From: Muricea muricata | Lineage: Eukaryota; Cnidaria; Anthozoa; Malacalcyonacea; Plexauridae | Assembly (NCBI GenBank): GCA_963855995.1 | Contig: OY979723.1 | Location: 9,677,013-9,741,012, forward strand | Length of the DNA stretch: 64,000 nt | Reading direction: 5' to 3' | Part shown: in pieces, positions 13,249 through 63,216 of the stretch | Layout: every line of letters starts with the position of its first letter | Numbering within the stretch: position 1 is the stretch's first letter | Notes under the pieces: generated by a model | Seen by the model: only the letters and a program-made list of their open reading frames with translations | Databases searched by the model: none | Told to the model about the DNA's origin: nothing | Made by a program: the position numbers and the translations under genes

Positions 13249-13249
13249 T

Positions 13250-14407
13250 AGTCTGGTTGCACAGTTATGCAAACAGATCAAATTGAAATGAAAGCAGATT
13301 AAGAGTAAAACTTTGCAGGACAAAGTAAAAAACATCTCAAGACATTCTATGCTATCAACGCTTTTTGATCAATGATTAATATTCACCGATAATCGTTTCG
13401 CCTTCGAGTAATTGTTAAATAATAATCGTGCTGCTTGCTCAAGCCCAAACCCAGGGCAAACTAGGAAACATTTTTGCGGAAATATTATGTCTCCTATCAA
13501 TGTTTCCTTGTTTGTTTACCTCGTAAAACATTGTTGCAGAAACAAAATTTGCTTCCTAGGAAGCAAAAATGTCTCCCAACTTATTTTGAACGGAAACAAT
13601 GTTTTCTAGTTTTCTCGCATGTTTCCTGATGCAGCAAGTCTGCAAGGATCAAGTTGCATCAAGTTCAATTCACGACTCACACGAGATGAAAGTGAATTTC
13701 AAAAATATGTTTTATATATGTTTCATTTGTTTTATACTTAGCCACAGAAATTATCTGGTGCGGAGCTTTATATGGATGATGCACATGTTATTGTTTATTT
13801 AGCCTCTGACTCTTAGGGAATTAGAATTAAAAAACATGATTTTAAAAAAATTTCTTTATTAAAAAATAAAGGCTAGTGTACATGCAAACGTTTCACACAG
13901 AAATTCATCCTCTTCCTCCTATTACATAGATATGATCCTCTTTGGGTGTCTGCCTGCCGTCAGCACCAATGAACGCCAGCAACCTCTTTGGTATTGACTG
14001 CATCAATCGTTTGCTCAAGTTCTTGTCCTGTGCGATCTCTCTCTACCTCTGATTGACCATCAACCTCTTGATTTTTCACACAGTCTTACTCGTAGTTTTA
14101 TTGATTCCACCTGATCCATTCTTTCTGTCCGTAATTCCCCGCTCCTTGGACACTAGGTGAGGTCAAACTTGTTTGCTTGTGTTTGATCCACTTGACCATC
14201 TCTGCATTACAAATATCTTACTCCTTCCACAATCTCAGACGCAAATGACGTTTTAAAATCCCTGAAAGTCACAGTTCTTTTACTTGACCACAACACCTTT
14301 TTGTGCACATTATAACTTTAAGGATTGCATGTAAATAGCAAAAATTGCTCAACATAGTGAGACGATGCAACAAGAACTATTTAAACTTTCGCTTGTACAT
14401 TCTTTAG
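13250..14407 (+). pseudogene. Caspase 3' flank with a decayed p20 exon relic (copy 1)
   Basis: Between the CXC-caspase stop and the next catalytic exon only a scrap of a p20 exon survives, about 13672-13760: ACGAGATGAAAGTGAATTTC followed by the TTTGTTTTATACTTAGCCAC ending. The SHG motif reads SHR, the frame is shifted and the first two thirds are replaced by inverted-repeat sequence. Downstream intron sequence still resembles that of intact genes. The same relic is present in copy 2 (about 21029-21117). Confidence 0.75.
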
Positions 14408-14876
14408 TTCTAGTATCAGTGGAGTGTCCGACGAAACGATAAGCGTCGAAGAAATTGTGTCGTACTTTAAAGAAAACAACGACCTTATCGGAAAACCAAA
14501 ATTGTTCTTCATCCAAGTTTGTCGAGCTGGCGTCGAAGAAGAGAACACCAGAATTGATTACGTAAAAACCTTATGCCCACCAGATTCATCCGACATCCTG
14601 GTCGCATATTCAACAATCAATAACGAATTACCCTACAGGGATAGTTACAGTCGGTTATCGTTCATCCAAACTTTGCTGAACCAGATTAGCACGCATGCGT
14701 ATAGCGAACACTTGATGGATATAATGATTATGGTGAATAAAAAGATAGCTGAGAACAAACTGGACGGTAACAGACAAATATTGCCGCAAGTTTCGACTTT
14801 GAAAACATGCGTGTATTTCAAGATGGCAAAGGTTGGTAATTGTGCTAAAAGTCAGAAATTTCAGATTTATTTCTAG
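14408..14876 (+). pseudogene. Orphan caspase catalytic exon (QVCRA type), cut by the duplication junction
   Basis: Catalytic-Cys plus small-subunit exon with acceptor TTCTTTAG at 14401-14407. It reads ISVEEIVSYFKENNDL, KPKLFFIQVCRA, SSDILVAYST, then LPYRDSYSRLSFIQ and VSTLKTCVYFKMAKV. The canonical QACRG is QVCRA, and GSWFI is RLSFI, so the pocket Trp and Gly are lost. After residue codons AAAAGTC the sequence switches to the repeated intron of the next copy, giving an alien tail and stop. The normal donor is gone. With only a decayed p20 exon upstream it cannot make a full caspase domain, so I call it a pseudogene fragment. Confidence 0.8.
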
Positions 14877-21028: not shown

Positions 21029-21117
21029 ACGACTCACACGAGATGAAAGTGAATTTCAAAAATATGTTTTATATATGTTTCATTTGTTTTATACTTAGCC
21101 ACAGAAATTATCTGGTG
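21029..21117 (+). pseudogene. Decayed p20 exon relic (copy 2)
   Basis: Same remnant as in copy 1: only the last quarter of the exon is recognisable, with a frame break and SHR in place of SHG. It is the missing p20 partner of the catalytic exon at 21765-22239. Confidence 0.7.
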
Positions 21118-21764
21118 CGGAGCTTTATATGGATGATGCACATGTTATTGTTTATTTAGCCTCTGACTCTTAGGGAATTAGAATTAAAAAACATGATTTT
21201 AAAAAAATTTCTTTATTAAAAAATAAAGGCTAGTGTACATGCAAACGTTTCACACAGAAATTCATCCTCTTCCTCCTATTACATAGATATGATCCTCTTT
21301 GGGTGTCTGCCTGCCGTCAGCACCAATGAACGCCAGCAACCTCTTTGGTATTGACTGCATCAATCGTTTGCTCAAGTTCTTGTCCTGGTCGATCTCTCTC
21401 TACCTCTGATTGACCATCAACCTCTTGATTTTTCACACAGTCTTACTCGTAGTTTTATTGATTCCACCTGATCCATTCTTTCTGTCCGTAATTCCCCGCT
21501 CCTTGGACACTAGGTGAGGTCAAACTTGTTTGCTTGTGTTTGATCCACTTGACCATCTCTGCATTACAAATATCTTACTCCTTCCACAATCTCAGACGCA
21601 AATGACGTTTTAAAATCCCTGAAAGTCACAGTTCTTTTACTTGACCACAACACCTTTTTGTGCACATTATAACTTTAAGGATTGCATGTAAATAGCAAAA
21701 ATTGCTCAACATAGTGAGACGATGCAACAAGAACTATTTAAACTTTCGCTTGTACATTCTTTAG

Positions 21765-24700
21765 TTCTAGTATCAGTGGAGTGTCCGACGAAACGATAAG
21801 CGTCGAAGAAATTGTGTCGTACTTTAAAGAAAACAACGACCTTATCGGAAAACCAAAATTGTTCTTCATCCAAGTTTGTCGAGCTGGCGTCGAAGAAGAG
21901 AACACCAGAATTGATTACGTAAAAACCTTATGCCCACCAGATTCATCCGACATCCTGGTCGCATATTCAACAATCAATAACGAATTACCCTACAGGGATA
22001 GTTACAGTCGGTTATCGTTCATCCAAACTTTGCTGAACCAGATTAGCACGCATGCGTATAGCGAACACTTGATGGATATAATGATTATGGTGAATAAAAA
22101 GATAGCTGAGAACAAACTGGATGGTAACAGACAAATATTGCCGCAAGTTTCGACTTTGAAAACATGCGTGTATTTCAAGATGGCAAAGGTTGGTAATTGT
22201 ACTAAAAGTCGTGATGAAGAAGAGGAAATATTGTCAAAGGTGAATTGCTCATTGTTATAGGAAAAGCTGCAATAATGCTGTGTCTTTTTACTTGTAAAAA
22301 TAACTAAGTGTATCATTTAAGATCAGTTATTAAATCTTTTTAACATTTTTAACCTTTATAGTGCTAAAAATATCGAGCTCACTAATATACAAATAATGAA
22401 TGTTTATGAGTGCAATAGTAAGAATATTTTCATGAGGTGAAAGATGGAATGTTGTATTCAACGAGGCGATAGCCGAGTTGAATAGAACATTTCATCTTTC
22501 ACCGAATGAAAATATTCTTACTATTGCACGAATAAAAACATTCATTATTTGTTTTATATAATACCAAAATAGGCTATTGCTTTTCAAATAAAAACAATTT
22601 ATTAAAAGATCACCGTCCGAGAAATGTTTTGACGGATGGGATTTATTGAAAACAGAAAGAGTGCAATAGTAAAAAACGTATAGTACTTTTGCACTCTAGT
22701 ATTTTCCTATTGCACTCTTGGGAATAGAACTTTCTATTCGACATCACGTGAACAAAATCAACCAATTACACGATCTGAATTTAACAAGGTATTATATAAT
22801 TCCGAATATACAGAACATCTTTAGAATCAATATTTCTATCATTCAAACAAGACTTTACATTGAAGCAGTAAATCTTCGAGTTTATTTCAAAGTCATCTTT
22901 AAGCAGAATGAAATACAATATTTTACAACACACATACGTACACTATGAAACTCCAGTTATCCTGCTTGCTGAGTCATTCTTCTCTAAATCATAGTATCAT
23001 AATTATAGACATATTCATATCAATTTTATACATCTTGTTTGAGCACTATATATTGATTCTCAATGTATCCTCTATATTTGAAATTTGTTTTGTACTTTAT
23101 TTTTTAAATTTTCGGCTAGGTGGGTTTCTCAATTGAAGGACTTGTACTGTACCTTAAAGCCCATCGTTCAAAAGGCTATAACTGTGCCGTCTGTGCGCTT
23201 GAATCTTTCTAAATTCCCCCTAACTTAATTAACTGGAGCGTCAACAAAACTTAACCAATCCATCTAGTATGATTTCTGTTTTCTTAATTTTTCAGGCAAA
23301 TGAGATTCCACATGAAAGTAATAGTTGCAGTCCTGACGAAGAGCCGATTTCAGTTTCAATCAACACATCCAGTGTAGAAAGCGAACTTGAAGGTAAAGAT
23401 TTAAAGAGAACGTTTCCTGGATAATAAGGAGTGGGGTACTTCCTTTGAGCCTGGCTCTAGCCAGGGGCATCCAATCAATCGAGCCAGGGCACCTGAGAAA
23501 CGATCGAAAGGGGCCCATAAGTCAGTGACATCTCGCGAGATAGTTCGTCGCAAAGGTCTAATGTAGCTTTTAAACTATTATTTTCTGTGTAAATCCAGTA
23601 CTCGACCGTTCCAAGACATAATAATGTCCGAAAGTGTTTTACCACAAGGCCCATTTTTGACGACGAACGGAGAAAACGCGCAGAGGTCCTTAGGCCAGGG
23701 ACACCTTATCTTATTATGACGCCACTGTCACTGGAGATTTCTAAAGTTTATTACAGCAAATATGACATCGTTAAAGGTCGTATTTAAAACCTTAAACATT
23801 TGTTTGAGTGCGTACAAAATTTTTTTGTTGTAGGGCAGATAGGAAACGAATACGAAAAGGCTTTACAGGAATCAGTGCATCAAATCAACAATGGCTACGC
23901 TCTGGTCATACACAACAGATATTTCAGCAAACTTCCATCAAGAACAGGATCTGAAAAAGACCTTGAGGCAATAAAAATCTTCTGTAAGGAAGCAGGTCTC
24001 CATCTGGATATTATAGAAAATGCCAAAGTCAACGATATCCGCCGCCATTGTCGCAAACTCAAACGAGATAAAAGTGAATTTCAGAATTATGATGGTTTCG
24101 TTTGTTTTATACTTAGCCACGGAAATTGGTAATTATCTAGTACGGTGCTTTATATGGATGATGCACGGGTTATTGTTTATTTAGCCTCTGATTCTTAGGG
24201 AATTAGTACTAAAAACCAGGATTTTAAAAACATTTCTTTGTTAAAAAATAAAGGCTAATGTACATGCAAACGTTTCACATAGAAATTCATTCTCTTCCTC
24301 CTATTACATGGAAATGATCCTCTTTGGGTGTCAGCATCAATGAACGCCAGCAACCTCTTTGATATTTGACTACAACAATTGCTTGCTTAACTAGCTTCTT
24401 GTCCTGATCGATCTCTGTCTACCTCTTATTAACCATCAACTTCCTGCACCTTCACAAACTATGCTTGCTTGTGTTTGATCCACCTGACAATCTTTGTATT
24501 ACAAATATTTAACTCCTTCTCTAATTTCAGACCCAAATGACGTTTTAAAATGCCTAAAAGTTAGAGTTCTACTTGACCACAAAAAATGGTAGAAATTAAA
24601 ACTTTAAGGACTGCATGTAAATAGCAAAAGTTATACTAAACATCGTGAAAAGATGCACTAAGGACCATTTACCTTTTCGCTTGTACATTCTTTAGTTCTG

Positions 24701-25197
24701 GTATCTATGGAGTGTACGGCGAAACGATAAGCGTCGAAGAAATTGTATCCTATTTCAAAGAAAACGACGACCTTCTCGGAAAACCAAAATTGTTCTTCAT
24801 CCAAGCTTGTCGAGATGGCGTCGAAGACGATAACTCCGGAATTGATCACAAAAAAACCTTATGCCCACTAGATTCATCCGACATCCTGGTCGCATATTCA
24901 ACCGTCGATGGCGAATCAGCCCAGAGGCATATTCACAATGGATCATGGTTTATCCAAACTCTGTTCAAGCAGATTAGCACGCATGCGTATAACGAACACT
25001 TGATGGACATAATGATTTTGGTGAATAAAAAGATAGCTACAAGTGAGCTAGAGGGTAAAAGACAAATGCCACAGCAGCTTTCAACATTGACAAAATTTGT
25101 GTACTTCAAGATGGCAGAGGTTGGGAAGGTGCTGGAAGCGAAAAACTCTATATTAAGCAGAGAAGGCACATCTACAAGGATGGGACCAACGAGCTAG
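21765..25197 (+). CDS. Tandem-caspase gene, 5'-truncated: degenerate catalytic exon plus complete second caspase domain
   Basis: Exons 21765-22239 (catalytic, QVCRA type), 23296-23392 (linker), 23834-24128 (p20) and 24696-25197 (catalytic, stop). Phases match throughout: the first exon ends in phase 0 at ATATTGTCAAAG/GTGAAT and the linker begins in phase 0. The second domain is complete, with GYALVIHNRYF, the Arg loop SRTGSEKD, SHGN at the exon end, then KLFFIQACRD and QRHIHNGSWFIQ, ending RMGPTS. QACRG has become QACRD. The first domain lacks a working p20 exon, and no exon 1 of the MNP type is visible upstream. By comparison with the intact gene at 47930-53053 this is the 3' part of a double-caspase gene. 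It may be expressed as a fusion with upstream exons or be decaying. Confidence 0.7.
22240..23295. mobile_element. Intron with nested hairpin elements
   Basis: Linker-upstream intron of the truncated tandem-caspase gene. A hairpin at about 22388-22552 pairs AGTGCAATAGTAAGAATATT with AATATTCTTACTATTGCAC. A second GTGCAATAG-type hairpin lies at about 22660-22730. The rest aligns with the corresponding introns at 32161-32762, 47999-48593 and 50434-51003, which lack the hairpins. Confidence 0.65.
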
Positions 25198-26330: not shown

Positions 26331-26344
26331 AACCACTTTCACTT

Positions 26345-32091: not shown

Positions 32092-35027
32092 ATGAACCCG
32101 TTGCACAGTGCTGACAGTTCTAATAAAAGTCATAATGAAGAAGGGGAAATAGTGTCAAAGGTGTGATTGCTAATTATTATAGGAAAAGCTGCAATAATGC
32201 TGTCTTTTTACTTGTTAAAAATAACTAAGTGCATCACTCAAGATCAGTGATCTCAATGTTTTTAACATTTTTAACCTTTGTAGTGCTAAAAATATCGAGT
32301 TCACTAATTCCGAACGTCTTGATATAATACAAAACGTCTTGAGAATATTTCGATCATTAATCAAACAAGACTTATTAAAATTGAAACTGTAAATTTTCGA
32401 CTTCATTTCGAAGTCATCTTCAGACAGAATGAAGTACAATATTTTACATCACACATATGTACACTGCTTGTTGAGTCATAGTTATCATAATTATAAACAT
32501 ATTCATATCAATTTTACGTCTTGTTCGAGCGCTATATATTGATTCCCAATATGTCCTCTATATCTGAAATTTGTTTTGTACTTTACTTTTTTAACTTTTC
32601 GGCTAGTTAGGTTTCTCAATTGAAGGAGTTGTACTATACCTCAAAGCTCATCTTTCAAAAGGCTATAACTGTGCGTTTAAACCTTTCTAAATTCCCAATA
32701 ACTTGATTAATTGGAGAGTGAACAAAACTTAATCAATTAATTTAGTATCATTAATTTTTTAGACGAATGAGATTGCACATGAAAGCGATAGTTGCATTTC
32801 TGACAAGGAGCCGATTTCAGTTTCAATCAACACATTCAGTGTAGAAAGCCAACTTGAAGGTAAAGATTTGAAGAGAAAATTTTCCTGAATAACAATATAG
32901 GCACTGGGTAACTCCTCTGCGCCTGGCTTTAGCCGGGGACATCCAATCAATCAAACACGGCCACCTGAGAAACGATCGAAAGAGGCCCATAAGTCAGTGA
33001 CATCTCGAGAAATACCTCGTCGCAACCGTTTAATGTAGCTTTTAAACTGTTTTATAATATAGCATTTGTAAATTCTGAACGTTGATTGGCTAAGAGCCGT
33101 GTTGATATAACTCCATGTCAACACGGAAAATTCCACACAATTTCTCGTTTTTCCAATTTCCACTCGTGTTGATATTTAACAATTATTCGCCGAAGGCGAG
33201 GTGATTATCGGGGAATATTCCCCGAAAAAAAATATTTCCCGAAAATCACCGAGCCTGAGGCGAATAATTGTTTGAGTATTTTTACACAAGTTGTTTTAAT
33301 TTTGTTTATTTCTTTGTCCGTAATTTGTACAAAACGGCAGCTAGTCGCCATTTTGTAAACTTTTTTTTATTGTTATATTCACCTGTAGGTGAATATAAAG
33401 GAATGTCACGTCATATTGGACCAATCACAACGTCGGATTTCTTATGTTCACTTGTGTAAAAATACTAAAACTGTATATCAACACGGAAAATGTTTTATAT
33501 TTCTTAAATTTTGTATGTAAATCCTGTATTCGACAGTTCCAAGACATAATAGTGTCCGAAAGTGTTTTACTACCAGGCCAAAATATTTTGACGACGAAGG
33601 GAGAAAACGTGGGAGTTCTTGGGCTAGGAGCATCTCATCTTATAACTACGCCACTGCCCCTAGAAATAGAAATTAAGTCAGGCTTATTACAGCAAATATG
33701 ACGTCGTTAAAGGTCGTCTTTGAGTGTGTACATTTTTTTGCTGCAGGGCAAGCATTGCATCAAATCAACAACGGCTACGCTCTGGTCATACACAATAGAT
33801 ATTTCAACAAACTTCGATCAAGAAGAGGATCTGAGAAAGATCTTGATGCGATAAAAATCTTCTGTAAGGAAGCAGGTCTCCATCTTGATATAATAGAAAA
33901 TGTCAAAGTCAACGATATCCGCCGCCATTGTCGCCAACTCACACGAGATGAAAGTGAATTTCAAAAATATGATGGTTTCGTTTGTTTTATACTTAGTCAC
34001 GGAAACAGGTAATTATCTAGTTTAATTATATAAAGTGGAACAAGATGATCCTCTTGGTCTGGGTGAGGTCAAACTATGCTTGCTTGTGTTTGATCCACTT
34101 GACCATCTCTGCATTACAAATATTTAACTCCTCCTCCAGACGCAATAATGACGTTTTAAAATCCCCGAAAGTCCAAACTCTTTTACTTGACTACAACATC
34201 TTTGGGTAGACATTATAAACAGAAAAGGTTACTAAACATCGTGAAAAGATGCACTTATTTACATTTACATTTTGGCTTGTGCATTTTTTAGCTCTGGTAT
34301 CTGTGGAGTGTACGACGAAACGATAAGCGTCGAAGAAATTGTATCATATTTCAAAGAAAACAACGACCTTCTCGGAAAACCCAAATTGTTCTTCATCCAA
34401 GCTTGTCGAGCTGACGTCGAAGACGATAACACCGGCATTGATTACGAAAAACCCTTATGCCCACCAGATTCATCCGACATCCTGGTCGCATATTCAACAA
34501 TCGACGGCGAATTATCTTACAGGAACATTCGCAATGGATCATGGTTTATCCAAACTCTGCTCAAGCAAATTAGCACGCATGCTTATAACGAACACTTGAT
34601 GAACATAATGACCATGGTAAACAAAGAAATAGCTGAGAGCGAACTGAGTGGTTACAGACAAATGCCACAGCAGGTTTCGACATTGACAAAATTTGTGTAC
34701 TTCAAGATGGCAGAGGTTGGGAAGATGCTGGAAGCGAAAAACTCTATATTAAGCAGGGACGGCACATCTACAAGGATTGGACCAAATTCATTGGTGGATT
34801 ACAATAACGAGCATGGTGAATCTGATCCCCCTGCGGTTACCAGACCCAGGTCTTTATATGATTATTACCACGATAGCGAGTCTAGACCTTACCGCGGAGA
34901 CACAGGGGCCAGAAGCAGTTTGCTATTGAATCGTTACCACGATAACGAGCCTAGTATTTTCCACCATGCCGTTTGGACCAGACCCGTGACGCCACGGGAT
35001 TCTACTCCTAAGGCATATTATATCTAA
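32092..35027 (+). CDS. Single-domain caspase gene with long C-terminal tail (four exons, 387 aa)
   Basis: Complete: exons 32092-32160, 32763-32859, 33747-34008 and 34292-35027, 1164 nt in frame. Exon 1 reads MNPLHSADSSNKSHNEEGE. The linker exon (residues 24-55) is acidic and Ser-rich. p20 runs from about residue 60 (HQINNGYALVIHNRYF) with the Arg loop RSRRGSEKD and catalytic His140 in SHGN. The last exon has Cys181 in KLFFIQACRA, pocket LSYRNIRNGSWFIQ and VSTLTKFVYFKMAEV. It differs from its relatives in an extra tail of about 90 residues containing YDYYHDSESR and LNRYHDNEPS, two diverged copies of a short motif. A candidate poly(A) signal AATAAA lies at 35269-35274. Substitution of the Gly in QACRG by Ala is shared with two other genes here. 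Confidence 0.88.
33050..33500. mobile_element. ~450-bp insertion in the linker-p20 intron
   Basis: The paralogous intron at 48870-48900 runs straight from TTTTAAAC to TATGTAAATCCTGTATTCGA, while here about 450 bp intervene. Ends carry GTGTTGATATAAC / TATATCAACACGG. The centre has ATTATTCGCCGAAGGCGA mirrored by CCTGAGGCGAATAATTG. Related pieces are at 8941-8995, 13380-13410 and 37070-37150. Confidence 0.7.
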
Positions 35028-38446: not shown

Positions 38447-41266
38447 ATGAACCCTACTGATAGTTACGTTAAAAGTTTGGAGGAAGAAGGAATCTTAAAG
38501 GTGAGATTGTTAATGGTTATAGAATGAAACATCATCTAAAAATTAGCATCTTGATACTCAATTATAAGAGAACAGGATAAGTTCTTTGTGTCTCAAAGCC
38601 AGCAATGGTCCTAATCCTGTTCTCCAAATTCCTTTGTTTTGTGGTCAAGTGATTAATGCTGTATATAAGTATATACACCTTTTTACTTTAGCCTGTCCGA
38701 TGATGATTTTGTAATAAAATCGAAATATCACAAACTCATTCTCGTCTTGTTATAATCCGTATCCCGTTTCAAGATGCTAATCAGTCTTTGGAATATGTTT
38801 TAGTCTGCATTTTTTGACATTGTCTGCTAGTAATAGGTTTTGTAATTGTTATATTGGTAAAAGCTTCAATCATGAAAATGAAATAGACATCATTGAGAAT
38901 CAGTGGTCTTGATAACACTTTTGAACCTTTATGATCTTAAAAGACCACCTAGTTAGCTTTTTAATTAAAAGAGTTGTGATAAACCTGAAAACTCGTCATT
39001 TTTCTATGGCTATGACAGTTCCACTCAAGTCCCAATTAACGCAATTAACTGAGACCGCTTGTATCAAAGGCGTTTAGCTTAAACGGTGGATAAGAATCAC
39101 TTTTACATCCAGCACGGAGCCAAAATTATGAGTTTGATATAATAGATATTTAGTTTCATACATAATTGTTCTTCTCAGGTCAAATAACTTTAGCTGGTTT
39201 GTTTATACAACATGCAAACTTGTTTTATATTTTTGACTTATCCAACGTTTAAGCTAGACGCCCCTGATACAAGCGGCCTTTGCAGCGTCAACAAAACTAA
39301 TCAATGCATCTAGTATGATTTCTGTTTTCTTAATTTTTCAGACAAATGAGATTGCACATGAAAGTGATTGTTGCAATCCTGACAAAGAGCCGATTTCGGT
39401 TTCAATCACCACATCTAGTGCAGAAAGCGAACTTGAAGGTAAAGATTTAAAGAGAAACGTTTCCTCGATAATAAGGACTGGAGTACCTCCTTTGGGCCTG
39501 GCTCTAGCCAGGGGTATCCAATCAATCGAGCCAGGGCACCTGAGAAACGATCGAAAGGGGCCCCTAAGTCAGTGACATCTCGCGAGATAGTTCGTTGCAA
39601 AGGTTTAATGTAGCTTTTAAACTATTATTTTTTGTGTAAACCCAGTACTCGACCGTTCTAAGACATAATATAGTGTCCGAAAGTGTTTTACCACAAGGCC
39701 CATTTTTGACGACGAACGGGGAAAACGCGCAGAGGTCCTTAGGCCAGGGACACCTTATCTTATTACGACGCCACTGCCTCTGGAAATTTCTAAGGTTTAT
39801 TACACCAAATATGACATAGTTAAAGGTCGTCTTTAAGACCTTAAACATTTGTTTGAGCGTGTACAAAATGTTTTTGTAGGGCAGATAGGAAACGAATACG
39901 AAAAGGCTTTACAGGAATCATTGCATCAAATCAACAATGGCTACGCTCTGGTCATACACAATAGATTTTTCAACGAACTTCGATCAAGAAGAGGATCTGA
40001 AAAAGATCTTGAGGCGATAAAAATCTTCTGTAAGGAAGCAGGTCTCCATCCGGATATTATAGAAAATGTCAAAGTCAACGAGATCCGCAGCCACTGTCGC
40101 CAACTCACACGAGAGAAAAGTGAATTTCAAAAATATGATGGTTTTGTTTGTTTCATACTCAGCCACGGAAATCGGTAATTATCTAGTACGGTGCTTTATA
40201 GGCATGGTGCACGGGTTGTTTATTTAACCCTTGATTCTTAGGGAATTAGTATTGAAAACCATGATTTTAAAAATATTTCTTTGTTAAAAAATAAAGGCTA
40301 CTGTACATGCAAACGTTTCACACAGAAATTCATCCTCTTCCTCCTATTACATAGAAATGATCCTCTTTGGATGTCTGTCGTCAGCAACAATGAACGCAAG
40401 CAACCTCTTTGATATTGACTACAACAATTGCTTGCTTAACTAGCTTCTTGTCCTGGTCGATCTCTGTCTACCTCTTATTAACCATCAACTTCCTGCGCCT
40501 TCACAAACTATGCTTACTTGTGTTTGATCCACCTGACAATCTCTGTAATACAAATTATTTAACTCCTTCTCTAATTTCAAACCCAAATGACGTTTTAAAA
40601 TTCCTAAAAGTTAGAGTTCTACTTGACCACAAAAAAATGGTAGAAATTAAAACTTTAAGGACTGCATGTAAATAGCAAAAGTTATACTAAACATCGTGAA
40701 AAGATGCACTAAGGACCATTTACATTTTCGCTTGTAAATTCTATAGTTCTGTTATCTGTGGAGTGTCTGGAGATACGATAAGCGTCGAAGAAATTGTATC
40801 CTATTTCAAAGAAAACAACGACCTTCTCGGAAAACCCAAATTGTTCTTCATCCAAGCTTGTCGAGCTGACGTCGAAGACGACAACCCCTGGATTGATTAT
40901 GAAAAAACCTTATGCCCACCAGATTCACCCGACATCCTGGTCGCATATTCAACAATCGACGGCGAATTAGCACACAGGCATATTCGCACTGGATCATGGT
41001 TCATCCAAACTCTGCTCAAGCAGATTAGCACGCATGCGTATAACGAACACTTGATGGACATAATGATTTTGGTGAATAAAAAGATAGCCGAGAGCGAACT
41101 GAGTGGTTACAGACAAATGCCACAGCAGGTTTCGACATTGACAAAATTTGTGTACTTCAAGATGGCAGAGGTTGGGAAGGTGCTGGAAGCGAAAAACTCT
41201 ATATATACTAAGCAGAGAAGGCACATCTACAAGGATGAAACCAAATTCCTTAGCGGTTTACAATAA
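38447..41266 (+). CDS. Single-domain caspase gene with frameshifted C-terminus (four exons, 321 aa)
   Basis: Complete: exons 38447-38500, 39342-39438, 39880-40174 and 40747-41266, 966 nt in frame. Exon 1 reads MNPTDSYVKSLEEEGILK. The linker exon is acidic and starts TNEIAHESDCCNPDKE. The p20 exon has GQIGNEYEKALQES before GYALVIHNRFF, Arg loop RSRRGSEKD and catalytic His146 in SHGN. Cys187 is in KLFFIQACRA; the pocket is LAHRHIRTGSWFIQ, with Arg kept and aromatic Tyr replaced by His. After AKNSI the gene differs from its relatives: four extra bases in CTCTATATATACTAAG shift the frame, giving a basic tail (TKQRRHIYKDETKF) instead of LSREGTSTR. The catalytic domain is unaffected. Intron 1 contains two MITEs. 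Confidence 0.87.
38533..38790. mobile_element. Insertion with ATTAGCATCTTGA ends in intron 1
   Basis: AATTAGCATCTTGATACTC and the inverse GTTTCAAGATGCTAATCAG about 250 bp apart, with AATTATAAGAGAACAGG between. Corresponding introns in the other genes lack it. Non-coding. Confidence 0.55.
39053..39290. mobile_element. Palindromic MITE, TTTAGCTTAAACGGTGGATA family, copy 2
   Basis: CTTGTATCAAAGGCGTTTAG at the left and the inverse CTAGACGCCCCTGATACAAG at the right. The paralogous intron near 23230 goes directly from AATTAACTG to GAGCGTCAAC, an empty site. Confidence 0.78.
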
Positions 41267-44959: not shown

Positions 44960-45946
44960 TCATAATTGTTTAGGTGTGACAGCTCTATTCATCGCTCGCT
45001 CTCGTTGATTAGGTGTAGAAGTTCTATTTATCCCTCGTCTTTGTTGATCAGATGGAGTTGTTGTACGCACGATTTGCTGTCGTTCATTAGGTGTAGTAGT
45101 TCTATGCATCCCTCGCTGTCGTTGATCAAGTGAAATACTTCTAGTTAATGTCCTTCGCTCTCGATGATCTGGTGTGGTAGTTATTCTACTCATCCCTGGC
45201 TCTCGTTCGCCAAAATACACTGGCTTTCTCAATGTGCTCTCAAAACACGACATTTGCTTTCTGCCACGATGATCCAACCTTGCAACCCGTTTGTTAACAA
45301 TACTAAGTAAATCCGTCAAATTCATGCCATGGTCACGTTCATTTAAAACTTCCATCAAAACAGTAATAAACCAAGAGCCCTCTGTCACATCTCTGTACGA
45401 TTCATATCCATCTACTGTCGAGTAAGCAACTAGTGTATCTGCTTCAATAGGAATTCGAGCAGGAATGATTGGAGGAGCTTGCACCGTATCGACTCCTCTG
45501 TCAGAATTTCGGCCTCTGCAATTTTGCATGAAGAAAAGTTTTGGCTTATTTGCTAAAGAATCTATGCCCCTAAACTTGCTGATGACATTATTGACAGTAA
45601 TGCTGTTACCATCAGTTCCATATATAACATCTCCCTCGTCTCCGTGGCTAGATTTGAAAACAAGTAGAGCATTGTAGAGTCTGAATGCTGTTTTGGAAAA
45701 GCTCTCGCAAACTTGTATCATTTCCTCCGCTGTCAGATCATCACGATAAAAGTAAGTGAAGCCAAAGCTTCTACAAAACGCCAGAATTTTCGTTTTGTCA
45801 TACTGCGCTCCTGGTCGGTTTGGAAGCCACAAATTTCTCATTCTGCTTCGAAATATAGTATTGGTTATGACCAACGCAATACCTTTACCAATTACAAATT
45901 GATCATTGTCGAATTCATATCTCAATGACAACGACCGCGATGCCAT
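44960..45946 (-). CDS. Intronless caspase with shortened repeat tail (328 aa)
   Basis: Duplicate of the 435-aa gene. ATG at 45946, with protease motifs retained: NRPGAQ, SSHGD, FFMQNCRG and SYRDVTEGSWFI. Scattered amino-acid differences include FKSSHG for FISSHG and a two-codon loss in the inter-subunit loop. The repeat tail is about 107 residues shorter: one higher-order repeat is missing precisely, leaving one RTLTRSISLDQ. Unequal recombination inside the repeats would give exactly this. The reading frame is open throughout, so both copies look maintained. Confidence 0.87.
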   Translation of the reverse strand: MASRSLSLRYEFDNDQFVIGKGIALVITNTIFRSRMRNLWLPNRPGAQYDKTKILAFCRSFGFTYFYRDDLTAEEMIQVCESFSKTAFRLYNALLVFKSSHGDEGDVIYGTDGNSITVNNVISKFRGIDSLANKPKLFFMQNCRGRNSDRGVDTVQAPPIIPARIPIEADTLVAYSTVDGYESYRDVTEGSWFITVLMEVLNERDHGMNLTDLLSIVNKRVARLDHRGRKQMSCFESTLRKPVYFGEREPGMSRITTTPDHRERRTLTRSISLDQRQRGMHRTTTPNERQQIVRTTTPSDQQRRGINRTSTPNQRERAMNRAVTPKQL

Positions 45947-46547
45947 GATTTAAGATGAAACATAGGAATTAAATGTTTATTTTTGAAAGAATTTCTCTCC
46001 AACCGGGAACATCGTCGCTGCTCATGCATTCTATGCTCATAGTTATGTGTGGTATTTGTTGCGAAAAATATTTTTTGAAAAAAAGGTGCTTCCCAACAGT
46101 CTTGTGACTCAAGATTCGCTAATATGACGACACTGTCACGCTAATCATTCAAAAACACCACTCAAAAAGTCCCCATGAATGCACAAAGAATGTTATACAT
46201 TTTAATTTTTTACGAAAAAAAATTCATAAACGACAGCATGATAGGATATTCATGCAATGATAACCAGTTTAAGTAATGTTAATTGTATATGCTTGTTAAA
46301 TTAGCTTTGGCAACGCTTAGCAGGTTTGTATTCGTTTCTATTGGTTTTGTATTGAAAAATTTCGAGTTATGCTGTATTATATCAAAACAAAGAGAATTCT
46401 TTGTTCTTTAGAAAACTTTGCGAGAGACAGAGTGTTCGAGAAGATACTAAAGCCACCGGCTAGGAGCATCTGCGCGAAAACGAAACAGTGATTTTCATTG
46501 GCTCATTTGAATTACGTTTGACCAATCAACATTGAGAATACTTTGTT

Positions 46548-47643: not shown

Positions 47644-47929
47644 AGAAGGAAAAACGGGTCGGATACGAGTATTTATAAGTCTCTTATAAGTATTCTTAAG
47701 TCTCTTAAGGCTTCTTAGAAACGATGAATTTCAATATTGTTGTTATTCTTGTATTTTCACCTTCAATATGTTTCGAAAGTCAAACACTTCAATTTCAGAA
47801 CCGCCCATCCGTTTTTCAATTCGTCATGTGATAAAGCTCACTTGAAACCGCTCGCTACTTCATTCACAGTCCGCGCCGCAGTATTGAGAAATTATCGACG
47901 ATCAACAAGGCACAACTCACAAATTACAG

Positions 47930-50900
47930 ATGAACCCGTTGGACAGTGCTGACAGTTCTAATAAAAGTCATAATGAAGAAGGGGAAATAGTATCAAAGGT
48001 GTGATTGCTAATTATTATAGGAAAAGCTGCAATAATGTTGTGTCTTTTTACTTGTTAAAAATAACTAAGTGCATCATTCAAGATCAGTGATCTCAATGTT
48101 TTTAACATTTTTAACCTTTGTAGTGCTAAAAATATCGAGTTCACTAATTCCGAACGTCTTGATATAATACAGAACGTCTTGAGAATAATATTTCGATAAT
48201 TAATCAAACAAGACTTATCAGTAAAATTGAAACTGTAAATTTTCATCTTCAGACAGAATGAAGTACAATATTTTACATCACACATATGTACACTGCTTGT
48301 TGAGTCATAGTATCATAATTATAAACATATTCATATCAATTTTACGTTTTGTTCGAGCGCTATATATTGATTCCCAATATGTCCTCTATATCTGAAATTT
48401 GTTTTGTACTTTACTTTTTTAACTTTTCGGCTAGTTAGGTTTCTCAATTGAAGGAGTTGCACTATACCTTAAAGCTCATCTTTCAAAAGGCTATAACTGT
48501 GCGCTTAAATCTTTCTAAATTCCCAATAACTTAATTAAGTTGGAGAGTCAACAAAACTTAATCAATTCATTTAGTATGATTTGATTTTTTCAGGCAAATG
48601 AGATTGAACATGAAAGCGATAGTTGCATTTCTGACAAGGAGCCGATTTCAGTTTCAAACAACACATTTAGTGTAGAAAGCCAACTTGAAGGTAAAGATTT
48701 GAAGAGAAAATTTTCCTGAATAACAATATAGGCACTGTGTGACTCTTGTGCGCCTGGCTTTAGCCGGGGGCATCCAACCAATCGAACACGGGCACCTGGA
48801 AAACCATCGAAAGAGGCCCATAAGTCAGTGACATCTCGCGTCATACCTCGTCGCTACGGTTTAATGTAGCTTTTAAACGGTTATTTTCTATGTAAATCCT
48901 GTATTCGACAGTTCTAAAACATAATAGTGTCCGAAAGTGTTTTACTACCAGACCAAAATATTTTGATGACGAAGGGAGAAAACGTGGGAGTTCTTGGGCT
49001 AGGAGCACCTCATCTTATAACTACGCCACTGGCTCTAGAAATAGAAATTAAGTCAGGCTTATTACAGCAAATATGACATCGTTAAAGGTCGTCTTTGAGT
49101 GTGTACAACATTTTTTTGCTGTAGAGCAAGCATTGCATCAAATCAACAATGGCTACGCTCTGGTCATACACAATAGATATTTCAACAAACTTCGATCAAG
49201 AAGAGGATCTGAAAAAGATCTGGAGGCGATAAAAATCTTTTGTAAGGAAGCAGGTCTCCATCTGGATATTATAGAAAATGTCAAACTCAACGATATCCGC
49301 CGCCATTGTCGCCAACTCACACGAGATGAAAATGAATTTCAAAAATATGATGGTTTCGTTTGTTTTATACTTAGCCACGGAAACAGGTAATTATCTAGTT
49401 TTATTACATAAAGTGCAGTGCTTTATATAGATGATGGATTATAGATTGTTTAGCCCCTGATACTAAAAATCATGATTTAAAAACATTTCATCGTTATAGG
49501 GTATTCTACACGCAAACATAAATGAATTGAGCTGATGCGATGAGTTGATTACATAGAATTTCACACAGAAATTCATCCTCTGTCCATCCTATCCATCCAA
49601 TCCATCCTATTACATAGAAATGATCCTCTTTGGGTGTCTGCCTGCCGTCAACATGAATGAACGCCAGCAATCTCTTTAGTATTGACTGCATCAATGGCCT
49701 GCTCAACTTCTTGTCCTGGTCGATCTCTCTCTACCTCTTATTGACCATCGACCATTTGACCATCTCTGCATTACAAATACTTAACCCCTTCCCTTCTTTA
49801 AAATCCCCGAAGGTCCAAGCTCTTTTACTTGACTACAACACCTTTCTGTGCCCTTTATAACTTTAAGGATTGCACGTAATTAACAAAAGTTACTCAACAT
49901 CGTGATCCGTGAAAGATGCACTTAGGACTATTTACATTTTCGCTTGTACATTCTTTAGTTCTGGTATCTGTGGAGTGTACGACGAAACGATAAGCGTCGA
50001 AGAAATTGTGTCGTACTTTAAAGAAAACAACGACATTATCAGAAAACCCAAATTGTTCTTCATCCAGGTTTGCCGAGCTGGCGTCGAAGAAGACAACACC
50101 AGAATTGATTACGTAAAAACCTTATGCCCACCAGATTCATCCGACATCCTGGTCGCATATTCAACAATCAATAACGAATTACCCTACAGGGATATTTACA
50201 GTCGCTCATCGTTCATCCAAACTTTGCTGAAGCAGATTAGCACGCATGCTTATAGCGAACACTTGATGGACATAATGATTATGGTGAATAAAAAGATAGC
50301 TGACAACAAACTGGATGGTAACAGACAAATGTTGCTGCAAGTCTCGACTTTGAAAAAATGCGTGTATTTCAAGATGGCAAAGGTTGGTAATTGTACTAAA
50401 AGTCGTGATGAAGAAGGGGAAATAGTGTCAAAGGTGAGATTGCTCATTGTTATAGGAAAACCTGCAATAATGCTATGTTTCAGCTTTTACTTGTAAAAAA
50501 TAACTAAGTGTATCATTTAAGATCAGTGATCTCATTGTTTTTAACATTTTTAAGCTTTATAGTGCTAAAAATATCGAGTTCACTAATTCCGAATATACAG
50601 AACATCTTTAGAATCAATATTTCTATCATTCAAACAAGACTTTACATTGAAGCAGTAAATCTTCGAGTTCAGTTCAAAGTCATCTTTAGGCAGAATGAAA
50701 TACAATATTTTACAACAGACATACGTACATTATGAAACTCCAGTTATCCTGCTTGTTGAGTCATTCTTCAATAGGACATAGTATCATAGTTGTAAACATA
50801 TTCATATCAATTTTATGCGTCTTGTTTCTTGGGTTTCTCAATTGAAGGACTTGTACTATATATACCTTAAAGCCCATTGTTCAAAAGGCTATAACTGTGC

Positions 50901-53053
50901 ACTTAAATCTTTCTAAATTTCCCCTAACTTAATTAACTGCATGGAGCGTCAACAAAACTTAACCAATGCATCTAGTATGATTTCTGTTTTCTTAATTTTT
51001 CAGACAAATGAGATTGCACATGAAAGTGATAGTTGCAATCCTGACCAAGAGCCGATTTTAGTTTCAATCAACACATCCAGTGTAGAAAGCGAACTTGAAG
51101 GTAAAGATTTAAATAGAAAAGTTTCCTGGATAATAATAAGGTGTCGACTACTGTAGAGTACCTTCTTTGAGCCTGGTTTAGCCAGAGGCATCCAATCAAT
51201 CGAGCCAGGACACCTGAGAAACGATAGGGCGCCAACAGTCAGTGACATCTCGCGAGATAGTTCGTTGCAAAGGTCTAATGTAGTTTTTAAACTATTATTT
51301 TCTGTGTAAACCCAGTACTCGACCGTTCTAAGACATAATAGTGTCCGAAAGTGTTTTACCACAAAGCCCATTTTTGACGACGAACGGAGAAAACGCGCAG
51401 AGGTCCTTAGGCCAGGGACACCTTATCTTATTATGACGCCACTGCCTCTGGAAATTTCTACTGGAAGGTTTATTACACCAAATATGGCATAGTTAAAGGT
51501 CGTCTTTAAGACCTTAAACATTTGTTTGAGTGTGTACAAAATTTTTTTGTTGTAGGGCAGATAGGAAAAGAATACGAAAAGGCTTTACAGGAATCATTGC
51601 ATCAAATCAACAATGGCTACGCTCTGGTCATACACAATAGATATTTCAACGAACTTCCATCAAGAAGTGTATCTGAAAAAGATCTTGAGGCGATAAAAAT
51701 CTTCTGTAAGAAAGCAGGTCTCCATCTGGATATTATAGAAAATGTCAAAGTCAACGAGATCCGCCGCCATTGTCGCCAACTCACACGAGATGAAAATGAA
51801 TTTCAAAAACATGATGGTTTTGTTTGTTTTATACTTAGCCACGGAAATCGGTAATTATCTAGTACGGAGCTTTATAGGGATGGTGCACGGGTTATTGTTT
51901 ATTCAGCCCCGAATTCTTAGGGAATTAGTATTAAAAACCAGGATTTTAAAAACATTATATTGTTAAAAAATAAAGGATAGTGTACATGCAAACGTTTCAC
52001 ACAGAAATTCATCCTCTTCCTCCTATTACATAGAAATGATCCTCTTTTGGTGTCTGTCGTCAGCATCAATGAACGCCAGTAACCTCTTTGGTATTGACAG
52101 CGTCAATCGCTTGCTCAACTTCTTGTCCTGGTTGATCTCTCTCTACCTCTTACTGATCATCAACCTCTTGATTCTTCATACTGTCGTGCCCACAGTTTTG
52201 TTGATTCCACCTGATCCATGCTTTCTGTCCGTAATTCCCCGCTCCTTGAACACCTTCATGTTGCGGTCAGCGAACTGGTACATGATGATCCCCTTGGTCT
52301 GGGTGAGGTCAAACTATGCTTGCTTGTGTTTGATCCACCTGACAATCTCTGTATTACAAATACTTAACTCCTCTAATTTCAGATCCAAATGACGTTTTAA
52401 AATTCCTGAAAGTCAGAGCTCTTTTACTTGACCACAACACCATTTGGTAGAAATTATAACTTTAAGGACTTCATGTAAATAGCAAAAGTTACTAAACATC
52501 GTGAAAAGATGCACTTAGGACTATTTACATTATCGCTTGTACTTTTTTTAGTTCTGGTATCTGTGGAGTGTACAGCGAAATAATAAGCGTCGAAGAAATT
52601 GTATCCTATTTCAAGGAAAACAACGACCTTCGCGGAAAACCCAAATTGTTCTTCATCCAAGCTTGTCGAGCTGACGTCGAAGACGACAACCCCTGGATTG
52701 ATTATGAAAAAACCTTATGCCCACCAGATTCACCCGACATCCTGGTCGCATATTCAACAATCGACGGCGAATTAGCACACAGGCATATTCGCACTGGATC
52801 ATGGTTCATCCAAACTCTGCTCAAGCAGATTAGCACGCATGCGTATAACGAACACTTGATGGACATAATGATTTTGGTGAATAAAAAGATAGCCGAGAGC
52901 GAACTGAGTGGTTACAGACAAATGCCACAGCAGGTTTCGACATTGACAAAATTTGTGTACTTCAAGATGGCAGAGGTTGGGAAGGTGCTGGAAGCGAAAA
53001 ACTCTATATTAAGCAGAGAAGGCACATCTACAAGGATGGGACCAACGAGCTAG
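47930..53053 (+). CDS. Tandem double-caspase gene (seven exons, 598 aa)
   Basis: Exons 47930-47998, 48594-48690, 49125-49386, 49959-50433, 51004-51100, 51556-51850 and 52552-53053 sum to 1797 nt, with every phase compatible. It encodes two complete caspase domains in one chain. Domain 1 (about residues 60-290): Arg loop RSRRGSEKD, His140 in SHGN, Cys181 in KLFFIQVCRA, but RSSFIQ replaces GSWFIQ, so the pocket Trp and Gly are lost. Domain 2 (about 345-580): SRSVSEKD (Gly to Val after the Arg), His429, Cys470 in QACRA, pocket LAHRHIRTGSWFIQ. The donor after GAAATAGTGTCAAAG links domain 1 to a second linker exon. Domain 1 may be a pseudo-enzyme scaffold for domain 2, as in other caspase/pseudocaspase pairs, but here covalently joined (inference). 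Two separate transcripts cannot be excluded, but domain 1 has no stop before the donor. Confidence 0.82.
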
Positions 53054-53217: not shown

Positions 53218-53790
53218 CAGTACTGTGCAGAAGTTTTAGGTCACCTATAAAATTTTCATTTATTTGTAAAACGTAGCATATTACAACACAAAAATACAAA
53301 ACAACAACATAGTTCATTGTTTTACACGTAGTAGAAAATTTTTCTACACTGGTAGAACCACTCAACAATTCCATACAGAGAGCTCAGGCAGTCTAGTACT
53401 TGGTGCTACCACCATGAGCAGCAATTACAGATGCACAACGCCGAGGCATTGAGGAAACAAGCTTCTTTGTTACATCTTCATCGATATTTTCCAATAATTC
53501 AAAGATAGCCGCCTTTAGTTCTTCAAGGTCTTTGCATGGTTTTGCATCCAACCTTTTCTTTATTTGTTCCCAAAGATGTTCGATGGGGTTTAGGTCCCAT
53601 GGGCATATTCCTTTTCTTGCAAACCAAGACATGGTGCTGTTTGCTCGGTGATATGGTGCCCCATCTTGTTGAAAGACAAAGTCTCTACCGCAAAGCTTGC
53701 TACCATCTTTTAGAAGAGTTCGACAAATGAGCCTAGCATAGCGTTTTGCATCTAGACCTGCCGTTTCAGTGCACGGAAACATATATACAA
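53218..53790 (-). mobile_element. Tc1-family transposon remnant, second copy
   Basis: Terminus CAGTACTGTGCAGAAGTTTT after the same target context as at 25366. The minus-strand frame 53782-53393 encodes a transposase C-terminal half with FVFQQDGAPYHRANSTMSWF and LNPIEHLWEQIKKRL. The catalytic-region Asp in QQDGAP is present; a few residues before the LNPIEHLW motif are deleted. The N-terminal half was replaced or cut by the LINE fragment that follows. Confidence 0.88.
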
Positions 53791-54465
53791 GGAGAGACCC
53801 ATCTCTCTGGACTTATTACCAATCTCTTACTGGCATGAGTTTCTGGACTTGATGTTCTTTTATAAAGCTATATCTGGATTAGTGCTTGTATCAAGTGATG
53901 TCCTACCCGAGCAAATCAACCTATCTATAGTTACCCGATCAAGTGCAGACTCGAGTGTTCTGGCATTCCGTCCTCGACAATGTAAGACTTCAACTTTCCA
54001 AAGATCATTCTTTATACGGACACCCCGAACTTATAACACCCTGCCAGATGAGTTGAGAAGAAAAGATCTATCCTTGACTTTCTTCAAATCGAAGCTGCTC
54101 CAATATTATCACGACGCAGTTAAAAATGTTTATGACATAAATGATGCCAGGACATGGAAATCCGTGTGCTTAAAATGCAACGCACCACGTAAACTTGTTC
54201 AACCACTTATGTGTTGTTTCTAGAACGTATAACATGCAGTTCTAGTTTATATTTTTGTAAGTCCTTGTTCGTATGCATGCACCAAGGGCCCACAGTAATT
54301 GGTTCTAAGCTGTTGTGGTGTCCCTGCCTTCTGTCTTCAGTATCTGTGTTTGTTTGTGAATGTTCTTGTTTGCGTCTGTTGTTGTTTGTGTTTGTTCTTG
54401 TACTTAAATAATTTATGTTCATGTAGGCGAAGCATAATAAATAAATAAATAAATAAATAAAAGAC
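53791..54465 (+). mobile_element. 5'-truncated non-LTR retrotransposon (LINE) 3' end
   Basis: The plus-strand frame up to 54223 encodes the C-terminus of a reverse-transcriptase ORF: FFYKAISGL, then TFQRSFFIRTPRTYNTLPDE and FFKSKLLQYY, the familiar end of CR1/Jockey/L2-like polymerases. It is followed by a 240-bp 3' UTR and a simple-repeat tail (AATAAATAAATAAATAAATA, 54436-54462). The tail abuts GACTAATGTA, exactly where similarity to the left flank (5282) begins. Confidence 0.85.
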
Positions 54466-59249: not shown

Positions 59250-60940
59250 AGAAAAAGCCAGAGGAAAGAACACAGGTAAAGTTGTTAATCTTTAATGGTA
59301 TTACAGTGCGACTCGTCGAGGTTACTCATTTGACGAGTTAAATGAGTCAATGAAAATGTCAATAAGTTAGAGTCAATGAGACAGTGTAGCGAAAATCTAT
59401 AGTGTGGCCAAACTTACTATAAAACAAGATGTATTAAATGGTCAATAATAGTAGTTATGTAGATATGAAACCACTATAAGTATTAAAATCTGATTGGAAT
59501 TAGAAATTTACATTTGTATTCTGTGTGTTGGTTCGTTCTTAAATTAGTCCTAGAGTTTCGAATTGTTTCGAATCGAAGACAATGCTCAATTCAGAATCGG
59601 CTTTTGAAGAAAAAGTAACAAAAATAGAGAAACTCTGGATATCTCCGAATGTGGCTTGCAAGTCTAATGATAGTACTGATTAATAACACTATTCATTTCG
59701 AGATTAATTCATCATGCAAGTTGTGTAAGTAAGATCGGTCGCTACAGCAACTTGTGCCAGCTTTCACAAGTAAAACAAAGTCTAGTGATATATATTGACT
59801 CTGCTATCGGTTTCAACTTTCAATTGGTTTTAGTTAGTAATATCTATCGCAGCGAGAACACGATGTTTTACGTTGCGTGGTTGAAAATAGATTCGTATAC
59901 ATCGGCAGCGCGCATGATTTCATCTTTATTCCAAGGACTATGTCAATATAAACGTTGTGTTACGAACGTTAGCGAACAGACGTTGATAGAAAGCGTCCAT
60001 TCATGGTTGATCATATGACGAGGATATTTCACTTCTAATATCAACGTTACCTCGACGTTGTCGATATCTACTTTTAGTCGGGGAGGCAGAGGTACAAAAA
60101 TATATGTTTACTTACAATAGCGAGGGACAATTTCATTTTACGTTTATATTGTACCTTTAGGTCTAATAAATATATTTCTGCATGTTGAACGCGATAAAAT
60201 TTCTTGTGGGCTCCAGCCAACACGTTTTTCCCGAAATTTTCTATAAAACTATAATATTATTGTCAAGAAAGGCGAAATTTCAGATTTATTTCTAGGAAAA
60301 ACCACTTACGCTATCAAAAAGGTAATAAAAAATTACATATAACACATTATTATGGTTACTTTTATTTTTCACATTTTTGTTGAGTTATGAGCGTTTAAAA
60401 ACTTATTTTCCGACTAGTGCCCAGGAAATTAGCGCCATTTTAGGACACTTTCCCATTTTGAAGCAGCAATAACTCAAAAACGGCCTGAAAAACAAGGGTG
60501 CCCGTAATTATGTCTTATATGTTGTTTTTTATAAGCTTTCTTATGATACAAGTAATTTTTCAAATGAGCGAATTTGAAAGTTTACTATTTTTGACCACAT
60601 AATAGTTTTACAATAAAACTGAAGAAAAACGTGTTGATCGAAGCCCACAAGAAAAATCGGGCAAAACAACATTAACAATTGTGATATTAGGCATCCAACG
60701 GACAATTTAAGAGCAAAATTGATTTGTCCCTCGAGAAGGTAGGTAAAATTACCTCTGCCTCCCTGACTATTTCCATTTTGTCGCAACTGTCGTAATAACA
60801 ATCCTTCTCCTGGTATTAAACTACTTTGAGCTATATGCATTACTGTATTAAATTACTTTGAGCTATATACATAACCGTTTTAAACTTAAAAGTACTATAA
60901 AATAAAAAGCGACTGCGGATGGGGCAAGTCTTTCTCGACG

Positions 60941-62080
60941 ATGTGATGACGTGGATATTTCGCTTCTATTAATATCAACGTTACCTCGACGTCGTCAATT
61001 GAACGTTTAAATATTGTTGAGATTGACAACATAACCTCAACATTGACATTGCTTCAACGTCAAGAATGTAGCAGTTGACCAAGTAATTAACGTATTTGCC
61101 CACTCAGTAGGATCCTGCTTTTTTACTTTCATACAAGCGCGACCATTCTCTATGGACCATTCCCTAATTAGACCAACTTAAATTCGAAAACAATTTTAGC
61201 CCATGCAGTTGGAAAGAGCTTCCTAAATTTAGTGAAATTTTGAAGTTTGGTTGCACAATATTGTAAAATATCGAAAATAAAGTAATGTAAAATTTGCGAA
61301 TTTTGTATATATAATTTTGACTTTGTATTACGCGGGAAAAAGCGTTACCACACTTCCACATAGTGGTACCGCTTTTCCGTTCGTAATACAAAAGTGTACA
61401 AACTTCCACATTTTACAATATTTCAAATTTCCACGCTTCATATTTTACAATATTTCCACATTTTACAATATTTTGCAACCAAACTTGACTGATTGTTTGA
61501 AATTTAGGATGCTCTTTCCAGCTGTCCTAATTGATTTTCCGAATTCAAAAGTTTGTTCAATGGGGGAATGGTCCATTAGTCATATTAAGTGTAGATCGAC
61601 GTACATGCTCTATCACATCGGTCACTTTGATATATTCACGTCAAAATGGTAACTTATATATCTTAATGGCTTAATGTCCGAGAAAATGCAATATTGATAC
61701 AAGTCAATGTCATTAAACGAATTTTGCATCAACTTGATACTTGCAATTATTTGTAACTTGTGCGCTTTGGGTAATTATTGTCATTTATGTAGTTTTGCTG
61801 GTGCAGAAACAGCTGCCAGCACAAGAAGGGCGCAAAAAGACCCGGTTGTCCGTGCAGAAATGAAGGATTGTATTGCGGAGACAAATGCAAGTGTGGCACA
61901 AATGTTATCATGTGTAAAAATAACGAAGACGGGCTGACGCCTAAGCTCACGAAAAAAACAACCGAAAAATATTTGGCAGAGAAGAGAGATGAGAGCTATA
62001 GATCATATCTGGTAAGATTTTACATAGAATTTTTCATTAATTTAGCTTCATTCCGCACTAAATTTTCTTGAAATCAGTTG
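60941..62080. repeat. 1.14-kb tandem duplication, left unit
   Basis: Offset to the next unit is 1140 bp (ATGTGATGACGTGGATATTT at 60941 and 62081). Each unit has a foldback element and one CXC exon with its splice sites. Units differ by scattered substitutions, so the event is older than the 7.4-kb duplication. Confidence 0.9.
61153..61577. mobile_element. Foldback element, copy 3
   Basis: Same family as 8366-8792, moderately diverged. Confidence 0.65.
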
Positions 62081-63216
62081 ATGTGATGACGTGGATATTT
62101 CGCTTCTATTAATATCAACGTTACCTCGACGTCGTCAACTGAACTTTTAAATATTGTTGAGATTGACAACATAACCTCAACATTGACATTGTTTCAACGT
62201 CAAGAATGTAGCAGTTGACCAAGTAATTAACGTATTTGCCCGCTCAGTGCGATCCTGCTTTTTTACCTTCATACAAGCGCGACCATTCTCTATGGACCAT
62301 TCCCTAATTAGACCAACTTAAATTCGAAAACAATTTTAGCCCAGTTGGAAAGAGCTTCCTAAATTTAGTGAAATTGTGAAGTTTGGTTGTACAATGTTGT
62401 AAAATATCGAAAATAAAGTAATGTAAAATTTGCGAATTTTGTATATATAATTTTGACTTTGTATTACGCGGAAAAAAGCGTTACCACACTTCCACATAGT
62501 GGTACCGCTTTTCCGTTCGTAATACAAAAGTGTACAAACTTCCACATTTTACAATATTTCAAATTTCCACGCTTCATATTTCACAATATTTCCACATTTT
62601 ACAATATTTTGCAACCAAACTTGACTGATTGTTTGAAATTTAGGATGCTCTTTCCAGCTTTCCTAATTGATTTTCCGAATTCAAAAGTTTGTTGAATGGA
62701 GGAATGGTCCATTAGTCATATTAAGTGTAGATCGACGTACATGCTCTATCATATCGGTCACTTTGATATATTCACGTCAAAATGGTAACTTATATATCTT
62801 AATGGCTTAATATCCAAGAAAATGCAATATTGATACAAGTCAATGTCATTAAACGAATTTTGCATCAACTTGATACTTGCAGTTATTTGTAACTTGTGCG
62901 CTTTGGGTAATTATTGTCATTTATGTAGTTTTGCTGGTGCAGAAACAGCTGCCAGCACAAGAAGAGCGCAAAAAGACCCGGTTGTCCGTGCAGAAATGAA
63001 GGATTGTATTGCGGAGACAAATGCAAGTGCGGCACAAATGTTATCATGTGTAAAAATAACGAAGACGGGCTGACGCCTAAGCCCAGGAAAAAAAAAACCG
63101 AAAAATATTTGGCAGAGAAGAGAGATGAGAGCTATAGATCATATCTGGTAAGATTTCACATAGAATTTTTCATTAATTTAGCTTCATTCCGCACTAAATT
63201 TTCTTGAAATCAGTTG
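62081..63216. repeat. 1.14-kb tandem duplication, right unit
   Basis: Second unit of the tandem pair, ending near TTCTTGAAATCAGTTG, where the left unit joins it. Confidence 0.9.
62292..62713. mobile_element. Foldback element, copy 4
   Basis: Same family as 8366-8792, carried in the right 1.14-kb unit. Confidence 0.65.

Follow-up and report, generated by a model that had tools for sequence, protein, structure and literature searches.

A predicted tandem caspase gene with both catalytic dyads intact in a caspase cluster of Muricea muricata

Executioner caspases-3/7 have a single caspase domain and are active as homodimers. Proteins that carry two caspase domains on one chain include the Acropora caspase-X proteins (AmCaspase Xa-Xd), which combine an inactive and an active domain; the first has neither the catalytic His nor the catalytic Cys, and the cDNA encodes a protein of 721 residues (Moya et al. 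2016, PMC4715348). A pairing of the two domains resembling that of c-FLIP and procaspase-8 was proposed and modelled there in 2016, and in the HeLa assays of that paper more killing was seen with the active domain by itself than with the full-length chain. It also mentions proteins predicted in databases, but unverified, that would have more than one caspase domain. c-FLIP itself is described as inactive (PMC4715348, PMC12198278).

In mammalian caspase-16, duplication of caspase-domain exons is reported to have turned one domain into the prodomain of the other; the dyad is lost N-terminally and kept C-terminally, a tethered intramolecular pair has been proposed and the gene is given an age of at least 180 million years (Eckhart et al. 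2025, PMC12198278). The mussel Mytilus coruscus has an expanded caspase family with tandem duplication, in which 4 of 47 caspases contain two CASc domains and 40 of the 51 CASc domains deviate from the QACxG pentapeptide (PMC10967218). A coral caspase of the executioner caspase-3/7 type, PaCasp7a, has a solved structure, 6WI4 (PMC7586219).

We analysed a window of 64,000 nucleotides from Muricea muricata (GenBank assembly GCA_963855995.1, contig OY979723.1, positions 9,677,013 to 9,741,012 of the forward strand); all coordinates below are positions in this window. It contains a predicted double-caspase gene. Since double caspases from corals, mussels and mammals and the c-FLIP-like idea have been published before, the basic architecture is only a modest surprise; judged from sequence, the present gene differs in keeping both dyads and in having single-domain relatives next to it. 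The gene resembles caspase-X, as described in PMC4715348, in having two tandem caspase domains in one protein (here a gene model), in being multi-copy and in having single-domain sister genes, and differs from it in keeping both dyads, in its length (598 aa against 721) and in that its two domains are identical at 184 of 228 positions. With caspase-16 as reported it shares a proposed tethered caspase pair derived by duplication, unlike that mammalian protein in having kept the N-terminal dyad, and with the Mytilus coruscus doubles it shares two caspase domains and tandem duplication within an expanded family. Within the published text on two-domain caspases, caspase-X and caspase family expansions that was available, no double caspase with both dyads intact was found. 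The gene may represent domain duplication before the dyad loss seen in the first domain of caspase-X and caspase-16 and, together with the single-domain relatives in the cluster, could show whether tethering precedes loss of catalysis in one half.

The predicted gene (47930-53053, plus strand) has seven exons, all of them present as in the preliminary description, that join in one frame of 1797 nt and encode 598 aa without an internal stop. Its exon borders are all GT-AG and the phases (0,1,2,0,1,2,0) are mutually compatible. An in-frame stop lies upstream of exon 1 at 47885. The order first proposed for the motifs, SHGN/QVCRA followed by SHGN/QACRA, was located at residues 139/179 and 428/468, and the acidic exon that had been noted between the two units is indeed repeated there (exons 2 and 5). 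Pfam analysis of the whole protein gave Peptidase_C14 (E 1.6e-79) with two matched stretches; a covalent tandem of two caspases is well supported by these and by the gene model. The linker between the two domains measures about 70 residues and is acidic overall, and its HESD-S (307-310) repeats that of the prodomain (29-32). HESD is present in four of the five copies of the acidic second exon in the window, the fifth reading HESN. Features are listed in Table 1.

Table 1. Positions of the double-caspase gene parts and of related caspase loci in the window
Feature	Position	Strand	Description
Exon 1	47930..47998	+	Start codon and acidic N-terminus of unit 1; GT donor
Exon 2	48594..48690	+	Acidic prodomain, HESD-S at residues 29-32; AG/GT borders, 97 nt
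Exon 3	49125..49386	+	Domain 1 p20 part, SHGN at 139-142; 33-nt in-frame gap relative to exon 6
Exon 4 (fusion exon)	49959..50433	+	QVCRA Cys, domain 1 p10, copy of the second half of exon 1 NCTKSRDEEGEIVSK, GT donor
Intron 4	50434..51003	+	Copy of intron 1 (alignment)
Exon 5	51004..51100	+	Repeat of exon 2, now inter-domain linker; HESD-S at residues 307-310
Exon 6	51556..51850	+	Domain 2 p20 part, SHGN at 428-431
Exon 7	52552..53053	+	QACRA, domain 2 p10, stop
S1	32092..35027	+	Complete four-exon single-domain relative, 387 aa
S2	38447..41266	+	Complete four-exon single-domain relative of unit 2, 321 aa; own diverged exon 1
Second fusion locus	21030..25197	+	Broken p20 remnant, fusion exon 21765-22239, open unit-2-type core (B2)
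A3	13673..14876	+	Third unit-1-type p10, cut within the fusion exon by the 7.4-kb tandem duplication

By alignment, unit 2 is a repeat of unit 1, introns included. Ungapped identity between the units is 0.87, 0.80 and 0.79 for introns 1-3 and 0.88 (aligned part), 0.88, 0.94 and 0.85 for exons 1-4. At the junction the end of the unit 1 p10 (KMAKVG) runs into the copied second half of exon 1 (NCTKSRDEEGEIVSK) and then an intact donor, which places the duplication breakpoints within the last and first coding exons. Unit 1 was thereby deprived of its stop, with none ahead of the exon 4 donor, and unit 2 of its start, with the reading frame preserved; in the exons of unit 2 no Met precedes p10. Start exons homologous to exon 1 occur at 32092 and 38447, in the single-domain relatives S1 and S2. 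The exon 4 donor (AAG/GTGAGA) and the exon 5 acceptor match the exon 1/2 splice of both relatives and, since intron 4 is a copied intron 1, the splice predicted to join the units is equivalent to that splice. As its sequence is organized, the double gene is the product of an in-frame tandem duplication within a caspase gene cluster. The possibility of a one-off chimeric assembly join was discounted, since the fusion exon recurs in a diverged copy at the second fusion locus.

HMMER alignments placed the catalytic residues. Domain 1 keeps His140, Gly141 and Cys181, and the dyad of domain 2 is kept as well. We take the residue numbering and pocket roles of caspase-3 (Arg64, Gln161, Arg207 etc.) to apply to both domains. 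In these terms the Asp-pocket residues Arg64, Gln161 and Arg207 correspond to Arg81, Gln179 and Arg220 of domain 1, all kept, and the Arg/Gln/Arg equivalents are also kept in domain 2. Other pocket residues are atypical. In domain 1 these are S205 to P, W206 to Y, G212 to R, W214 to S and QACR to QVCR; in domain 2 they are S205 to A, W206 to H and G66 to V, the last, like Arg64, being placed by the 5jft alignment, while two human caspase-3 alignments shift that stretch by two residues. Domain 1 thus has more p10 changes, and domain 2 has one p20 change.

The best match of the whole protein among solved structures was 5jft, on domain 2 (E 2e-22), and that of domain 1 alone was 6wi4 (E 1.3e-17), so that the closest solved relatives are executioner caspases-3/7. 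Among the nine p10 copies in the window the pentapeptide is QVCRA in A1-A3, QACRA in B1, S1 and S2, QACRD in B2 and QACRG in C1 and C2; QACxG is accordingly absent from domain 1 and, in the form QACRG, is confined to the last two copies. By the Peptidase_C14 criteria, a Pfam match and a His-Cys dyad, domain 1 belongs to the family. The first domain had been described as degenerate. That wording does not fit a domain in which the dyad and the Asp-pocket Arg/Gln/Arg are both retained, and the A of its CRA is common, occurring in six of the nine p10 copies. Neither domain looks dead by its sequence, and both look atypical.

The window is a caspase cluster, with one intact double gene and one decayed double. 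At the second fusion locus the first domain is reduced to a broken p20 remnant that reads SHRN, so that the first domain is intact at only one of the two loci with a whole fusion exon. The p10 dS between the two fusion loci is 0.084; if the fusion arose once, it is older than their split. S1 is a mosaic that resembles unit 1 as far as about 33960 and unit 2 over most of p10. It looks like a recombinant between the units of a double gene, and its C-terminal tail is longer. A version of S2 without exon 1 was dropped when an intact, diverged exon 1 was located.

Constraint was examined by comparing gap events and by codon models. Aligned to each other, units 1 and 2 show 27 gap events over 1601 unit-1 bp of introns and one over 832 bp of exons (33 nt, in frame). 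At the intron rate 14.0 exon gaps are expected (Poisson P for one or fewer, 1.2e-5), and 7.0 with constraint on a single unit (P 0.007). The p20 exons of the units are more alike than the p10 exons (dS 0.080 against 0.342), which we read as probable gene conversion between units, and the codon models were therefore limited to p10. A3 and C2 were omitted because they scarcely differ from A2 and C1. A manually set topology was used, with S1 beside the B clade and C1 central; in the p10 tree, C instead sat on the branch of S1 (75% support).

For the unit-1 clade omega was 0.70, with no distinction from 1 (LRT 1.06) and a difference from the rest (0.36) that is not significant at 0.05 (LRT 3.03). 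The whole unit-1 branch without the truncated copy gave 0.67 (LRT 0.76 against 1 and 1.81 against the rest), and the unit-1 stem 0.72. The tip of the truncated unit-1 copy had omega 1.89 (LRT 0.55) and the B clade 0.47 (LRT 8.44). The intact unit-1 tip was the only unit-1 branch below 1 by such a test (omega 0.21, LRT 4.13), this being one of four uncorrected class tests. The evidence leans towards constraint on the intact unit-1 copy; selection on domain 1 is weakly supported.

We favor the reading that the gene encodes a single-chain procaspase pair, that is, that an in-frame duplication gave two executioner-like domains with intact dyads as a tethered heterodimer, and consider the chances that this is right to be about even. 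It builds on the established sequence, frame, splice sites, domain content and duplication origin of the gene. A caspase gene of four exons was duplicated in tandem, with breakpoints inside its first and its last coding exon, and the second core landed in frame; the copied intron 1, now intron 4, would provide the splice sites joining the units, and one mRNA would span both. The product would be a single chain of two executioner-like domains separated by the acidic linker. By raising the local concentration of the partner domain, the tether should make intramolecular pairing more likely and so give a pre-formed heterodimer, with two possible active sites, both presumably active, whose substrate pockets are somewhat unlike. 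Candidate cleavage sites are HESD-S in the linker, repeated in the prodomain, and an Asp-containing loop past the catalytic Cys, and a cut at either could free or mature the chains. A bolder form of the proposal, which we hold only tentatively and think rather doubtful as a whole, is a covalently pre-paired caspase with two active sites, whose diverged pockets would cut two kinds of substrate, which would skip concentration-dependent dimerisation and in which the HESD linker site would switch between tethered and free forms.

It has to be asked whether domain 1, because of its p10 substitutions, is no longer an efficient enzyme and instead serves domain 2 as a built-in allosteric partner. Such a pseudocaspase-caspase pair, unlikely in our estimation, would account for RSS in place of GSW, Pro at S205 and QVCR for QACR in the unit-1 p10, agrees with the somewhat higher omega of unit 1 (the non-significant difference given above) and has a precedent, with a HeLa assay, in caspase-X as described in PMC4715348. 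It is harder to reconcile with the retention of His140, Cys181, Arg81, Gln179 and Arg220, with the fact that domain 2 is likewise atypical (G66, S205 and W206), and with the p20 parts of the two units, which are almost alike (dN 0.050). A pair of this type was proposed in the preliminary description; its covalent tandem stands, while the assignment of one inactive partner is weakened by the His, Cys and Asp pocket of domain 1 and by the atypical residues of domain 2. The accompanying analogy with c-FLIP and caspase-8 was made, modelled and partly tested earlier for Acropora caspase-X, and the missing dyad that would make a domain c-FLIP-like is not seen here.

Transcription could also treat the units as two genes, unit 1 ending by read-through of exon 4 into intron 4, where a stop is reached at 50494, and unit 2 beginning at one of the in-frame ATGs of intron 4 (50941 and 50977), which open into exon 5. 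All three unit-2-type copies (unit 2, S2 and B2) have the corresponding stretch open and with an ATG; the two unit-1-type copies examined (unit 1 and S1) have no ATG there. Against this, the open stretch consists largely of translated splice-acceptor tract, its three copies share descent, S2 carries it in addition to a start exon of its own, the donor of exon 4 is intact, and AATAAA/ATTAAA is absent from 50434-51555; we find this arrangement decidedly improbable. Counting against the single-chain reading, besides the ATGs of intron 4, are an AATAAA inside exon 4 (50287), which has its equivalent in exon 7 (52880), and the distance of 1.4 kb from the final stop to the first AATAAA/ATTAAA past it, at 54436. 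To a similarly low degree we credit the view that the double gene is a by-product of cluster turnover, non-functional or barely expressed and open by chance. Turnover is evident in the 7.4-kb tandem duplication (99.4%), the truncated copies and the mosaic S1; the first domain is broken at the second fusion locus, and selection on unit 1 is not firm. What a chance by-product would not predict are splice sites and a reading frame intact throughout and a single in-frame gap event in the exons where 14.0 were expected from the introns. The single-chain procaspase pair remains the reading we prefer.

The 7.4-kb tandem duplication just mentioned (7451-14853 and 14839-22210, 99.4% identical) carries a C-type caspase and a unit-1-type p10, and reflects either a very recent event or a duplication from the assembly or haplotypes. 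When viral contigs were scanned with the p10 of domain 2, 11 pattern matches came up, none of them a relative. Two intronless caspases lie on the minus strand at 28295-29605 and 44960-45949, with SHGDEG, QNCRG and Thr/Arg-rich repetitive C-terminal tails of unequal lengths; the second of them has 32-35% identity to the four main-family domains compared. Transposase pieces adjoin caspase copies, also on the minus strand, at 53393-53812 and 25922-26338, with Pfam matches to DDE_3 (26.7 bits, just below the Pfam cut-off) and HTH_Tnp_Tc3_2 (above the cut-off). More long repeats common to distant parts of the window, with inverted partial matches, are found at 6448-8949, 14855-16338 and 59250-63418.
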